Shown piece after piece: positions 4,400-8,565 of a stretch of 64,000 nt of DNA. Made by a program: the position numbers and the translations under genes. The notes beneath the pieces were generated by a model, which ran no database searches, was not told the DNA's origin, and was given only the letters and a program-made list of their open reading frames with translations. The DNA is taken from contig NZ_JACHIF010000005.1 in NCBI RefSeq assembly GCF_014203045.1, forward strand, positions 124,001-188,000, given 5' to 3'. The DNA comes from Prosthecobacter dejongeii. Lineage in GTDB: Bacteria; Verrucomicrobiota; Verrucomicrobiia; Verrucomicrobiales; Verrucomicrobiaceae. The stretch's first letter is position 1; each line of letters opens with the position of its first letter.

Positions 4400-6307
4400 T
4401 TACCGCTTCAGCTTCCGCTTCAGGCGCATCCAGGTCGGGACGTCCAGGTCTTCACCGCCGGAGGCGATGGCAGGCTCGGTGTCCTTGAATCGGCCGCGAT
4501 CTTGGTCGGAGAACCCGAGGTCAATCTGTTCCTGGTTCGTGGGCTTTTTCGCCACCACCATGTTAGCGGGAGGGGCATAGGCGAGGTCTTCCGCCGGCAA
4601 ATTGGTGCGAGCGACGACGGCGGCCAGCGGAGAGGTGGCGGGGCGGGGCTGCGGCGCGGGAGCCACGGCCTGGGGTTCCGGTGCGGGTGCTGGCGCAGGG
4701 GCCGGCGTCATGAAATCTTCGATGCGGAGGCGCTCCCGCACGGGCGGGGCTGGGGCGGGAGCAGGCGGCTCGGGCTCCGGTTCGTACTCGGGTTCTGGAG
4801 CAAAGCTGGCATGCGAGGCAGAAGGCTCCTCCTCGTCATAATACTCTTCCTCTTCGTAAGCGGGTTCCGCCGCAGAAGGGGCGTCGGGTAGACCAGCAGC
4901 GGCTGGGGCTTCGGGGAAGAGTTCAGGCTCGTCTGCGATGAAAGAGGTGTGGGCTTCCGGTGCGGCCAGGGAGATGATTTCATCGTCCTTGAACAGCAGG
5001 TCCATGGAGTCATCGCGGCTCAGCGGAGCGGAGCGTGCTGGAGCGGCCACGGCGGCTGGTTGTGGCTCGGGTGCGGCAGCGACAGGGGCAGGAGCTGGGG
5101 CGGCGACAGGAGCTGGAGCTGGGGCGGGCCGTGGGGCACGGACACGGGGCGCTGGGGCCGGAGAGAGCGTGAGCGCCGGAGGCTGCTGAGTCGCCGCCGG
5201 AGCTGGAGCAGCCACGGGGGCTGCTGCCAGTGGGGCGGAAGCGACTGCATCGGCCAGGCTAGGCATGGGCCGGTCCGTCATCGGCAGCATGTTGGCGGGA
5301 GGGGCCGCTGCAGCGATGGTGTTGAGCTGGGTGAGGCCCAGGGAACTGATGAGGGTGACGGAAATGGCGTCTCCCAGGCGGGCATCCACAGCCACCCCGA
5401 AGAGGATGTGGGTGTGGTCGGGCACGTGGCGGCCCAGTTGCTTCATGACGGCATCCACCTCCATGAGGGTGAGCGTCTCGCCACCGGCGATGTGGACCAG
5501 CAGGGTCTTCGTCTGGTGCAGCAGGCGGCCTTGATCAATGAGCGGGCTCTTCAGCGCACGCTTCAGGGCCTCGGCACCGCGGTTTTGGCCACGGGCTTCG
5601 CCGAAGCCAAAGAGGCAGCGGCCATTGGAGGTGCTGAGGGCGCTGGTCAGGTCATCCAGGCCCAGCTTTACCAACCCGGGGGTGGAAACGATGGTGGAAA
5701 CGGCGCGCAGGCTCTGAGCGATGAGTTGATCCGCCTGAGCGAAGGCTTTCTGGATGCCGTCCTTCGGCAGGATCAGTTCGCCCATGCGATTGTTCTCAAA
5801 CAGGATGAGGGCATCCGCCCGCTTTTGCAGTTGGGTCAGGGCATCTTCCGCCTGGCTGAGGCGGCGGCGACCTTCGAAGCTGAAGGGCATCGTGGCGGTG
5901 ACGTAAACCAGGGCGTTGGAGGCTTTGGCGATTTCCGCAATGACAGGAGCAGCCCCAGAGCCGGTGCCGCCGCCAAGACCGGCGCAGATGAAAACGATGT
6001 CGTAGCCTTCGATGGCCTGGCGGATTTCCTCGCGGGAAAACATGGCAGCTTCACGGCCCAGGTCGGGATCTCCGCCCGCGCCGATGCCGCGCATCAGTTC
6101 CGCCCCGAGCTGGATCTTGGTCGGAGCCATGGCGTGGCCCAGTACACGGATGTCCGTGTGCATGCAGACGAGCTGCGCCTCCACGGTGCGATCCAGCGTG
6201 ATGCGGTCGAGTACATTGCTGCCTGCGCCGCCGATGCCGACGATGCAGGTACGAAGGGCGGGCTTGTTGGGTTCTTCCCGCTGCGAGTGGCGATCGTATT
6301 CAACCAT
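4400..6307 (-). CDS. ftsZ: Cell division GTPase FtsZ with altered T7 loop and long Pro/Ala linker
   Basis: 635 residues against roughly 380-400 in most bacteria. The N-terminal GTPase core (about 20-330) has the T1 loop GIGGAGSN (24-31) and the tubulin signature GGGTGSGAAP (112-121). The catalytic T7 loop, normally N-x-D-x-x-D, reads KLGLDD (214-219), so the first two catalytic positions are Lys and Gly and only the last Asp remains. Residues 331-618 form a low-complexity Pro/Ala linker with acidic patches. The end (LDVPTWMRLKRKLKR) matches the conserved C-terminal peptide that binds FtsA and other partners. ftsA lies 44 bp upstream and ftsQ just before it. Verrucomicrobial FtsZ proteins are known to be divergent. 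Confidence 0.96.
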   Translation of the reverse strand: MVEYDRHSQREEPNKPALRTCIVGIGGAGSNVLDRITLDRTVEAQLVCMHTDIRVLGHAMAPTKIQLGAELMRGIGAGGDPDLGREAAMFSREEIRQAIEGYDIVFICAGLGGGTGSGAAPVIAEIAKASNALVYVTATMPFSFEGRRRLSQAEDALTQLQKRADALILFENNRMGELILPKDGIQKAFAQADQLIAQSLRAVSTIVSTPGLVKLGLDDLTSALSTSNGRCLFGFGEARGQNRGAEALKRALKSPLIDQGRLLHQTKTLLVHIAGGETLTLMEVDAVMKQLGRHVPDHTHILFGVAVDARLGDAISVTLISSLGLTQLNTIAAAAPPANMLPMTDRPMPSLADAVASAPLAAAPVAAPAPAATQQPPALTLSPAPAPRVRAPRPAPAPAPVAAPAPAPVAAAPEPQPAAVAAPARSAPLSRDDSMDLLFKDDEIISLAAPEAHTSFIADEPELFPEAPAAAGLPDAPSAAEPAYEEEEYYDEEEPSASHASFAPEPEYEPEPEPPAPAPAPPVRERLRIEDFMTPAPAPAPAPEPQAVAPAPQPRPATSPLAAVVARTNLPAEDLAYAPPANMVVAKKPTNQEQIDLGFSDQDRGRFKDTEPAIASGGEDLDVPTWMRLKRKLKR

Positions 6308-6351: not shown

Positions 6352-7566
6352 TCAGATGGCGACAGACAGGAGATCCGCCATCCGATGTGCCAGCCTTTTG
6401 AGCGGGGACAGGAAGGGCTTTTCTTGGTCCAGGATCTGCGCATAACGAATGAGACCGATAGGGGCGGAGAATTGAGGATTCTCGAAAGTAGCAGTCACGC
6501 CACTGACGGGAGCTGAACCTGCACGCGTTACCTTCATTCCAAACACTTCTCGGGCCACTACGTCAATCCCTTTTAGCAGGCTGGTGCCTCCCGTGAGATA
6601 AACTCCGGCGGCAATGCGGCCTGTGTGGCCTTCGCAGCGCTGGTGCACCTGTTCCAAAATTTCCCGCACCCGCAGGTAGATGACCTCATTCAAAAAGGCC
6701 CGCTCCACCTCGCCGAGCACGTAGCCCGTGTCATCTTCCACCCGCACCATTTCGCCGGGAGGGACGTCTTCATATTCGCAACTGCCTTCCGTCACCTTCA
6801 GCGCCTCCGCCCGGCCATGGGGAATCTGGAGGGCCATGGCGATGTCTTGGCTGATGTGGTCTCCCCCCAGAGGGATGCAGCCGGAGATGGTGAGCATGCC
6901 ATCTTCATAAAGCACGAAGTCAGCCGTGCCGCCCCCTAGGTCAATCATCAGCGCGCCTTCGCGTTTCGCCTCACGGTTCAGCACCACCTGAGCAGCGGCG
7001 ATGCCATTGAAAACCACGTCTTCGACTTCCAGCGGCACTTCCTTGACGCACTTGATGGAGTTCTGGATGCGCGGCAGGCTGCCGTGGACGATGTGATAGT
7101 CCGCCTCCAACTGCCGTGCCTGACGGCCGATGGGCTGGCGCACGGCCTCCACACCATCCACGATGTACTGGCGCGTGACGCTGTGCATGGAGATGCTGTC
7201 CTGCGGCGCAGGCACATTGCGGGCGATCTCCTTCACCTCTTCGACATCGTCTTCGGTGATTTCCGACTGGTCAGCCGGCAGGCGGTAGCAGCCACGATTG
7301 TTGACGCTTTCGATGTGGCCACCGCTGACGCCGAGGAAGACGTTGCGGATCATGACATCGCTGTAGTCTTCCGCCCGGACGAGGGCGTCATTCAGGCAGG
7401 TGTGGACGGTGTCAAAGTCCACGATTTCGCCTTTGCGGACGCCGCGTGAGGGAGCCGTGCCAACACCCAAGATCTTGATGGTGCCGTCGCGCTTCGCCTC
7501 GCCGACGACGACGCAGATCTTGCTGGTGCCGATTTCCAGGCCTGCATAGATGGTGGTCTTCGCCAT
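6352..7566 (-). CDS. ftsA: Cell division protein FtsA
   Basis: 404 residues of the actin/HSP70 fold. It tethers FtsZ filaments to the membrane. Seen: phosphate-1 motif AGLEIGTSKICVVVGE (8-23), the FtsA-type SHS2 (1C) insert around 85-165, phosphate-2 LMIDLGGGTADFVLYEDG (about 215-232) and an adenosine motif VYLTGGTSLLKG. The C-terminus (LKRLAHRMADLLSVAI) is an amphipathic helix of the kind that binds the membrane. The gene starts 6 bp after the ftsQ stop, so the two are co-transcribed and probably coupled; ftsZ follows after 44 bp. The length is normal. Confidence 0.96.
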   Translation of the reverse strand: MAKTTIYAGLEIGTSKICVVVGEAKRDGTIKILGVGTAPSRGVRKGEIVDFDTVHTCLNDALVRAEDYSDVMIRNVFLGVSGGHIESVNNRGCYRLPADQSEITEDDVEEVKEIARNVPAPQDSISMHSVTRQYIVDGVEAVRQPIGRQARQLEADYHIVHGSLPRIQNSIKCVKEVPLEVEDVVFNGIAAAQVVLNREAKREGALMIDLGGGTADFVLYEDGMLTISGCIPLGGDHISQDIAMALQIPHGRAEALKVTEGSCEYEDVPPGEMVRVEDDTGYVLGEVERAFLNEVIYLRVREILEQVHQRCEGHTGRIAAGVYLTGGTSLLKGIDVVAREVFGMKVTRAGSAPVSGVTATFENPQFSAPIGLIRYAQILDQEKPFLSPLKRLAHRMADLLSVAI

Positions 7567-7572
7567 AATGTG

Positions 7573-8565
7573 TCAACGAGCTGAGGTGGTTTTTGAAAGA
7601 GTCACGGGAACAGGGCTTTCCGGCTGCAGACCGGCGAGGTCAGGCGGCTGGCGAAAGGTGATGGGGACATTTTGCCGGGCGAGGAGATTCAGCGTGCCGA
7701 TCTCCCACCGCCGCTGGCGGGCCTCGAGGCGGATGCGGTCCAGCCGGGCGAGTTGCACATCCAGGTCATCCACGCCGAAGGTGATGACGGACTTGTCAGC
7801 AAAGGTGGCCAGCATGGAGTAGGGGGTCTGGATGTCCAGGCTGCGCACCTGAGGCTGGCCTTTTTCAAAGCGTTCTTCCAGCTCGCGCAGTAGTTTGAGG
7901 GCTGAGGTGAGTTGCAGATCCTGGATGGCGGTGCCTGCCGTTTTTTGGGCCAGCGCCGCGTAGCGGATTACGGGCAGGGCGGCCAGGGTCTCTGTCACCG
8001 TTTCGCAGGGAAAAGGCACGGCTTCGTGGTCCAGTAGGTGGCCTACTTCAGGGCGTCCAGCGATCATGCCCAGGCGCGGGCAGTCTAGCCACGCCACGGG
8101 CTGCCGCTGGGTGATGCGCAGAGTCATCAGGCCGGCGTCAAAGTCCCGCTCGATGGCCACATCCTTCACGGGGGGGAGCTGGCGCAGGCGGGTGTGCAGA
8201 GCACGCATGTTGATGGTCAGCAGGTTTTCCCCACGAGTGAGCAACGTGGCGCGAACGATCTTTTCCACCGAAAGCGGCCCACGCGTCTGCACGGCCACAT
8301 CTTGCAGCTCAAACTGAGGGTTTTTGAGGATGGCCTCCTGCACGGTGATCTTCACCAGCACAAAAAAGCAAATGATGGCGATGAGGCCCAGGGCCCACTT
8401 AAAGCCTCGCCGATGCGCGGCCTTTTTCTCCATCTCGCGGATCTTCGGCGAGTCCACCCGCAGGCAGACATCCATGGTCACTCCACCCACCTTCGCAGGC
8501 TGCTTTTTCGCAGCAGGACGAGGCGGCTTCGGAGCCGGGGCAGAAGCTTTCTTGGGTGAGGGCAT
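7573..8565 (-). CDS. ftsQ: Cell division protein FtsQ/DivIB
   Basis: 330 residues. A Lys/Pro/Ala-rich cytoplasmic tail (1-56) precedes one membrane segment (about 57-73, WALGLIAIICFFVLVKI). A POTRA-like domain follows (from about 82, with VEKIVRATLLTRGENLLTINMRALHTRLRQLPPVKDVAIERDF), then the beta domain. In the divisome FtsQ links FtsB and FtsL to the septum. Identity rests on this architecture and on its place directly upstream of ftsA; FtsQ sequences are poorly conserved. The start ATG at 8563-8565 is followed by a basic tail as expected. A terminator lies between the upstream ddl and this gene, so ftsQAZ probably has its own promoter in 8566-8657. Confidence 0.9.
   Translation of the reverse strand: MPSPKKASAPAPKPPRPAAKKQPAKVGGVTMDVCLRVDSPKIREMEKKAAHRRGFKWALGLIAIICFFVLVKITVQEAILKNPQFELQDVAVQTRGPLSVEKIVRATLLTRGENLLTINMRALHTRLRQLPPVKDVAIERDFDAGLMTLRITQRQPVAWLDCPRLGMIAGRPEVGHLLDHEAVPFPCETVTETLAALPVIRYAALAQKTAGTAIQDLQLTSALKLLRELEERFEKGQPQVRSLDIQTPYSMLATFADKSVITFGVDDLDVQLARLDRIRLEARQRRWEIGTLNLLARQNVPITFRQPPDLAGLQPESPVPVTLSKTTSAR

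Follow-up and report, generated by a model that had tools for sequence, protein, structure and literature searches.

Sequence evidence for a conserved FtsZ variant altered on both faces of the active site in the order of Prosthecobacter

We find that the FtsZ encoded in the window (the whole stretch of Prosthecobacter DNA that was analysed, 64,000 nucleotides) carries substitutions on both faces of the inter-subunit catalytic site. Its T7 loop reads K-x-G-x-D-D in place of the canonical N-x-D-x-x-D, and the canonical K+ ligand contributed by the neighboring subunit, Gln47 (E. coli numbering, used for all positions unless another species is named), is Arg (R54 of the window protein). These states are fixed in the genus and nearly so in the order, the residues that bind GTP are kept, and a sister clade shows the mirror image, with the other catalytic acid lost. 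By comparison across genomes we regard this as a genuine and conserved form of the FtsZ catalytic site that extends across the order.

The window protein has the domains, fold and genomic setting of FtsZ. In a Pfam profile search it matches PF00091 (1e-37, 130.7 bits, cut-off 33) and FtsZ_C, PF12327 (9.6e-19, 67.9 bits, cut-off 27), and it has no match to Tubulin_C (PF03953), which is present in BtubA and BtubB of the same genome. It falls below the cut-off of TIGR00065, the NCBIfam equivalog for ftsZ (272.4 bits, cut-off 295.2), which is passed by only 23/288 genomes of the phylum versus 13/14 control genomes. The AF2 model has a mean pLDDT of 84.7, with a middling 66 over residues 211-220 (T7), and its best structural match is a solved FtsZ, 2rhl_A (Z 41.2, rmsd 2.7, 304 residues aligned, the comparison giving aligned ranges rather than residue pairs), which places the protein in the FtsZ fold. 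The tubulin signature and the C-terminal peptide, described as intact in an earlier note on this DNA, are both present (GGGTGSG and DVPTWMRLKRKLKR). Upstream of ftsZ lie ftsA, the gene of an FtsQ-type POTRA protein and a D-Ala-D-Ala ligase gene, the context of a division cluster (Table 1). The protein is most likely the working division FtsZ of Prosthecobacter, and it is the sole FtsZ found in the genome. Between its core and the C-terminal peptide runs a long linker; for Verrucomicrobium spinosum FtsZ, a C-terminal extension is reported to take very few insertions (PMC12283558).

Table 1. Location of the ftsZ region and of the active-site residues in the window, with the equivalent residues of E. 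coli and S. aureus FtsZ
Feature	Position	Strand	Details
ftsZ	4400..6307	-	635 aa: GTPase domain, FtsZ_C domain, linker of ~300 residues, C-terminal peptide
FtsZ linker, core to C-terminal peptide	4442..5350	-	~300 residues, Pro/Ala/Glu-rich by eye
T7 loop GLVKLGLDD, residues 211-219	5651..5677	-	translation and alignments to solved and E. coli FtsZ
D219 = kept catalytic Asp, D212 / S. aureus D213	5651..5653	-	D or E in 78/78 order rows
D218 = extra Asp at E. coli A211	5654..5656	-	family rows: Asp 41/50, Ala 6, Ser 3
G216 = catalytic D209 / S. aureus D210	5660..5662	-	order rows: Gly 77/78, Ser 1
K214 = E. coli N207 / S. aureus N208	5666..5668	-	K or R in 50/50 family rows
R149 = kept catalytic Arg, R142 / S. 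aureus R143	5861..5863	-	alignment
R54 = K+ ligand Q47 / S. aureus Q48	6146..6148	-	Arg in 78/78 order rows
H50 = N43 / S. aureus N44 (holds Mg2+ waters)	6158..6160	-	family rows: His 45/50, Gln 5/50
ftsA, directly upstream of ftsZ	6352..7566	-	PF14450 3.8e-27, PF02491 9.3e-20
ftsQ-like gene	7573..8565	-	PF08478 POTRA_1, FtsQ-type, 25.9 bits, cut-off 23

The earlier note had read two of the three T7 residues as replaced (Asn by Lys and the first Asp by Gly), and translation and alignment both bear this out. The loop can be aligned gap-free both with E. coli FtsZ (NC_000913.3) and with GLINLDFADVKT, the stretch found in the PDB entries for B. subtilis and S. aureus FtsZ. Family f2 relatives with the Asn still in place (8/11 rows, for example GLINVGLDDL), together with titled Luteolibacter and Akkermansiaceae loci, fix the register, so that the loop contains no intact N-x-D-x-x-D at another position when the protein is aligned with verrucomicrobial and model FtsZ. 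The same note described a kept last Asp preceded by an extra one. Both align as described, at positions 212 and 211, but the extra Asp is not required: in the Verrucomicrobium-like genera of the family (g7-g11; 9/50 rows) position 211 is Ala or Ser. The idea that this residue stands in for the lost D209 is thus not general. Among the positions that we take to lie around GTP in E. coli FtsZ, the window protein keeps G20, D45, G107, T108, G109, P134, F135, E138, R142, N165 and F182. It has His in place of N43 and Asp in place of N186, and this Asp also occurs in 10/12 controls from outside the phylum.

FtsZ is present in 66/68 genomes of the family and 225/239 of the order, and our order sample comprises 78 FtsZ rows from families f1-f6, the families that constitute the order in our survey, f1 being the window's own with 50 rows. 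Position 209 is Gly in all but one of the 78, and position 212 is always acidic (72 Asp, 6 Glu). Position 207, always basic in f1, is mixed in the other families, and in f2 the rows without Asn have Q or S. Within the genus (31 rows) K, G, D and D at positions 207, 209, 211 and 212 never change, while two, four, two and two different codons, respectively, encode them. Fixed residues with synonymous codon change show purifying selection on the altered loop and agree with the earlier view that the gene is not decaying. Given that the loop is fixed in the genus and nearly fixed in the order, the T7 change is more than chance. It is also not special to the window protein: it is ordinary in its order, and titled Chthoniobacterales have lost D209 too. 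In a scan of titled genome records, Gly209 was found in 77/77 readable loci of the best 80 of 450, the search patterns coming from Verrucomicrobiales and hence favoring the clade that we call A below; the records include Luteolibacter, Akkermansiaceae, Roseibacillus, Verrucomicrobium sp. BvORR034 and Chthoniobacterales. The T7 loop of BvORR034 reads GIVRMGIADL and is identical in a second genome (G067).

Two features of this FtsZ had gone without mention in the earlier note: the replacement of Q47 by Arg on the opposite face and a single-acid pattern across the phylum. In S. aureus filaments, the K+ in T7 is reported to touch N208 and, across the interface, Q48 of the neighboring subunit; the water is positioned by a swing of D210 and framed by D213 and G72, with help from R143 (PMC8936486). 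Of the six residues that the same report describes as conserved across species (D46, Q48, R143, N208, D210 and D213), the window FtsZ has changed N208, D210 and Q48 and kept D46, R143 and D213. The two faces appear to have changed stepwise, because all three rows of families f10 and f18 have G209 and Asp211 and yet retain Q47; L232 and L247 are examples of titled Chthoniobacterales loci in which Gln47 is likewise kept. From these distributions, D209 was probably lost first and Gln47 was replaced by Arg later, within the order.

A comparison across the phylum reveals the mirror-image state. We define clade A as families f1-f6, f10 and f18 (81 rows) and clade B as f7, f9, f13, f14, f16 and f17 (39 rows), both in the same class. 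In clade A, position 209 is Gly in 80 rows and 212 is acidic in all 81; the kept acid, R142, D45 and G71 are invariant or nearly so, and 207 varies as one of the freer columns. In clade B, D209 is kept in 39/39 rows and D212 in none, its place being taken by T, A, S, G or Q in 39/39. N207 is kept in only 35 of these, the exceptions lying in f13 and f17; in the 35 rows of f7, f9, f14 and f16, N207 and D209 are invariant and 212 is variable. A FastTree phylogeny built without columns 207, 209, 211 and 212 recovers the clade A group, together with f11 and f15, as one clade (83 tips, support 0.985) and clade B as another (39 tips, support 0.974). In alpha/beta tubulin, the catalytic acid at the D212 position is kept by one subunit type and absent from the other, and both kinds are paired in one filament. 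Clade B, which lacks D212, resembles beta-tubulin; unlike in tubulin, one FtsZ per genome is the rule across our scan of the phylum.

Counted over 207 phylum rows, which combine best-scoring rows with hand-picked divergent families and are a non-random subset of the FtsZ-bearing genomes, 96 rows have only the second acid (212), 72 only the first (209), 36 both and 3 neither, so that single-acid FtsZ makes up 168/207. The rows stand for 206 genomes, as G428 was entered twice (L176 and L287, both in the class with both acids), and L004 is the window gene. The three rows with neither acid (L313, L314 and L322) have low profile scores (242, 199 and 226 bits) and a weak T7 alignment. The outside controls are a small set, with one sequence from the E. 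coli chromosome and 11 taken from plasmid-collection records; both acids are present in 12/12, whereas N207 is missing in 2/12 and Q47 in 2/12. Parsimony places 14 changes at position 209 and 11 at 212. A model in which the two losses depend on each other fits better than one in which they do not (LR 13.4, 4 df, p 0.009), but 12% of 500 simulations under independence gave three or fewer tips with neither acid, the number observed being three. These results are thus no more than suggestive of mutually exclusive losses. The opposite losses fixed in the two clades suggest that FtsZ can function with only one of its two catalytic acids.

We propose that the site has been rebuilt on both faces, with catalysis based on D212, basic residues in place of K+ and slower turnover, a model to which we give about an even chance. 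The protein would bind GTP and form head-to-tail filaments. On the T7 face, the water-placing D209 has given way to a fixed Gly and the K+-holding Asn207 to Lys; on the nucleotide face, the K+ ligand Gln47 has given way to Arg, with Asp212, Arg142, Asp45 and Gly71 remaining. Asp212 (Glu in some relatives) and Arg142 may then orient the water, and the basic side chains at 47 and 207 may do the bridging otherwise done by the bound K+. GTP hydrolysis would thus need no K+ and would probably run more slowly than in E. coli. The earlier note had offered either rewired hydrolysis or a different filament turnover. A rewired site is the best reading of the alignments, which are equally compatible with a slower and with a differently organized enzyme.

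Published work on standard FtsZ bears on this model in several ways. S. aureus FtsZ is reported to have a tenfold lower GTPase with Na+ in place of K+, and N208L, D210N and D213N each abolish its assembly (PMC8936486); E. coli D212G and Q47K are reported not to complement without a suppressor (PMC5405962). Single losses being harmful in standard FtsZ, these lineages must either compensate or tolerate slow turnover, and we favor compensation, given that the changed residues do not vary and occur on either face of the site. Such FtsZ is very probably functional, because ftsZ is reported to be essential by transposon sequencing in V. spinosum, a species with canonical peptidoglycan that undergoes binary fission (PMC12283558), and because Verrucomicrobium sp. 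BvORR034 has a loop of this kind. Conversely, the rebuilt-site model is weakened by the loss of assembly in the three S. aureus mutants and the failure of E. coli Q47K to complement, which make a poor enzyme possible, and by the middling confidence of T7, among the less certain regions of the AF2 model. The replacement of K+ at position 207 is weakened by that column, which is not always basic and is among the freer ones in clade A. Moreover, the changes are co-fixed in one clade and so amount to few events, which make no statistical case for co-evolution. Our literature search turned up no biochemical work on an FtsZ with such a site.

More tentatively, and with well under even confidence, we suggest that Verrucomicrobiota contain two mirror-image single-acid FtsZ enzymes, each of which would have arisen once in a major clade: one working through D212, with a fixed Gly209, Arg47 and often Lys/Arg207 in place of K+, and the other through D209, with D212 free to vary. 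This suggestion and the rebuilt-site model are both made slightly less likely by the incomplete retention of N207 in clade B and by the harm done by Q47K in E. coli. If two such enzymes exist, FtsZ-based division would need one catalytic acid only and K+ dependence would be optional.

The strongest competing explanation, which we consider rather unlikely, is an FtsZ nearly dead for hydrolysis, whose GTP-stabilized slow or static filaments would scaffold septal wall synthesis while partners drive disassembly. E. coli D212A is reported to retain 7% of its GTPase (PMC8142252), D212G has about tenfold lower activity and static rings (PMC7320174), and all of clade B lives with D212 replaced; however, a mere scaffold would have no need of the kept acid, R142, D45 and G71, which are (near-)invariant in clade A, and the altered positions themselves are frozen. 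An improbable alternative is relaxed constraint, in which verrucomicrobial FtsZ is drifting as a stage toward the loss of FtsZ seen in Planctomycetota and Chlamydiota. T7 and T2 do vary widely in other families of the phylum (85 rows outside both clades), few phylum genomes pass the TIGR00065 cut-off and FtsZ divergence has been published (PMC9871819), but the altered residues are conserved at the codon level in the window's order and ftsZ is reported as essential in V. spinosum (PMC12283558), so that for this order the explanation is already weak. It is very improbable that the extra Asp is a shifted D209 in an otherwise canonical loop: two neighboring Asp residues favor such a shift, but the alignment has no gaps against 12/12 controls, the Asn-keeping f2 rows read N-x-G-x-D-D and genera g7-g11 have G209 without Asp at 211, and we reject a misalignment. 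Finally, a takeover by BtubA/B followed by degeneration of FtsZ is scarcely credible and is contradicted by distribution. Although btubA, btubB and a TPR gene stand in a row in this genome, the same T7 loop occurs at 9/30 loci of the genus (L004-L033) whose genomes, some of them incomplete assemblies, gave no match to BtubA, none of the 51 BtubA-positive genomes (of 239 in the order) is from f2, where Gly209 is nonetheless present in 11/11 rows, and FtsZ is essential in V. spinosum (PMC12283558).

The rebuilt-site model can be set against known systems. The window protein shares with canonical FtsZ (E. coli, B. subtilis and S. aureus) the fold, the GTP-binding residues, the ftsQ-ftsA-ftsZ context and the C-terminal peptide; it differs in a T7 loop without N207 and D209, in Arg at 47 and in His at 43. 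FtsZ of Verrucomicrobium sp. BvORR034 and the like also lacks N207 and D209 and keeps D212, but there, unlike in the window protein, position 207 is Arg and position 211 is Ala or Ser. The V. spinosum FtsZ, published as canonical, belongs to the same family as the window FtsZ, and the text of that paper notes divergence and leaves the T7 loop unmentioned (PMC1845146). An FtsZ-like protein of Nitrosopumilus maritimus also has an altered T7 motif, but it is reported also to lack the GTP-binding motif, which is intact in the window FtsZ, and to form no polymers in yeast (PMC3684127). That verrucomicrobial FtsZ is strongly divergent was already known (PMC9871819; PMC1845146), and it has been suggested in a general way that FtsZ has undergone functional change within the PVC group (PMC12283558). 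We found no report of the T7 states described here in a literature search judged mainly on titles and abstracts; Pilhofer 2007 and 2008, on ftsZ of Prosthecobacter and the PVC group, may mention the loop. The T7 and T2 residues are called conserved across species (PMC8936486), yet these lineages divide without one acid, and do so in two opposite ways. As natural separation-of-function variants, they bear on which of fast hydrolysis, turnover or scaffolding division needs, and on the loss of FtsZ in related phyla.

The 6.0-Mb assembly has three tubulin/FtsZ domain matches. One is FtsZ, and the other two are proteins encoded side by side, 473 and 426 aa long. These two have tubulin N- and C-terminal domains and are followed by a TPR gene (G000:C2:219839-222607; L001, L129); from a gene order like that described in PMC5372463, we read the three as putative BtubA, BtubB and Bklc, which fits a Prosthecobacter-like organism. 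By eye, the BtubA T7 region (TVEISLRELLTNLVP) lacks N-x-D and keeps Glu.

One genome with the same genus label (G044, locus L078) has an FtsZ that is only 57% identical, with the signature GGGTGGG and the loop DGLVKLGVDD; either its species is highly divergent or the genome is misplaced. BtubA-like genes extend beyond Prosthecobacter, with matches at E <= 1e-10 in 11/48 genera of the order, including three genomes of family f3 (G100, G177 and G203). Two of these carry a further divergent tubulin (G177, L338:3476-4954, minus strand; G100, L336:3538-4830, minus strand), in both of which the T7 region by eye lacks N-x-D-x-x-E; the protein in L338 scores 139 bits against PF00091 and has no Tubulin_C match. 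In family f4, genomes G092 and G086 encode proteins of ~600 aa (L333:1-1824, plus strand; L335:1125-2999, minus strand) with a mid-protein tubulin/FtsZ domain (residues 191-396 and 214-418) that are 30-33% like BtubA and possibly form a separate family.
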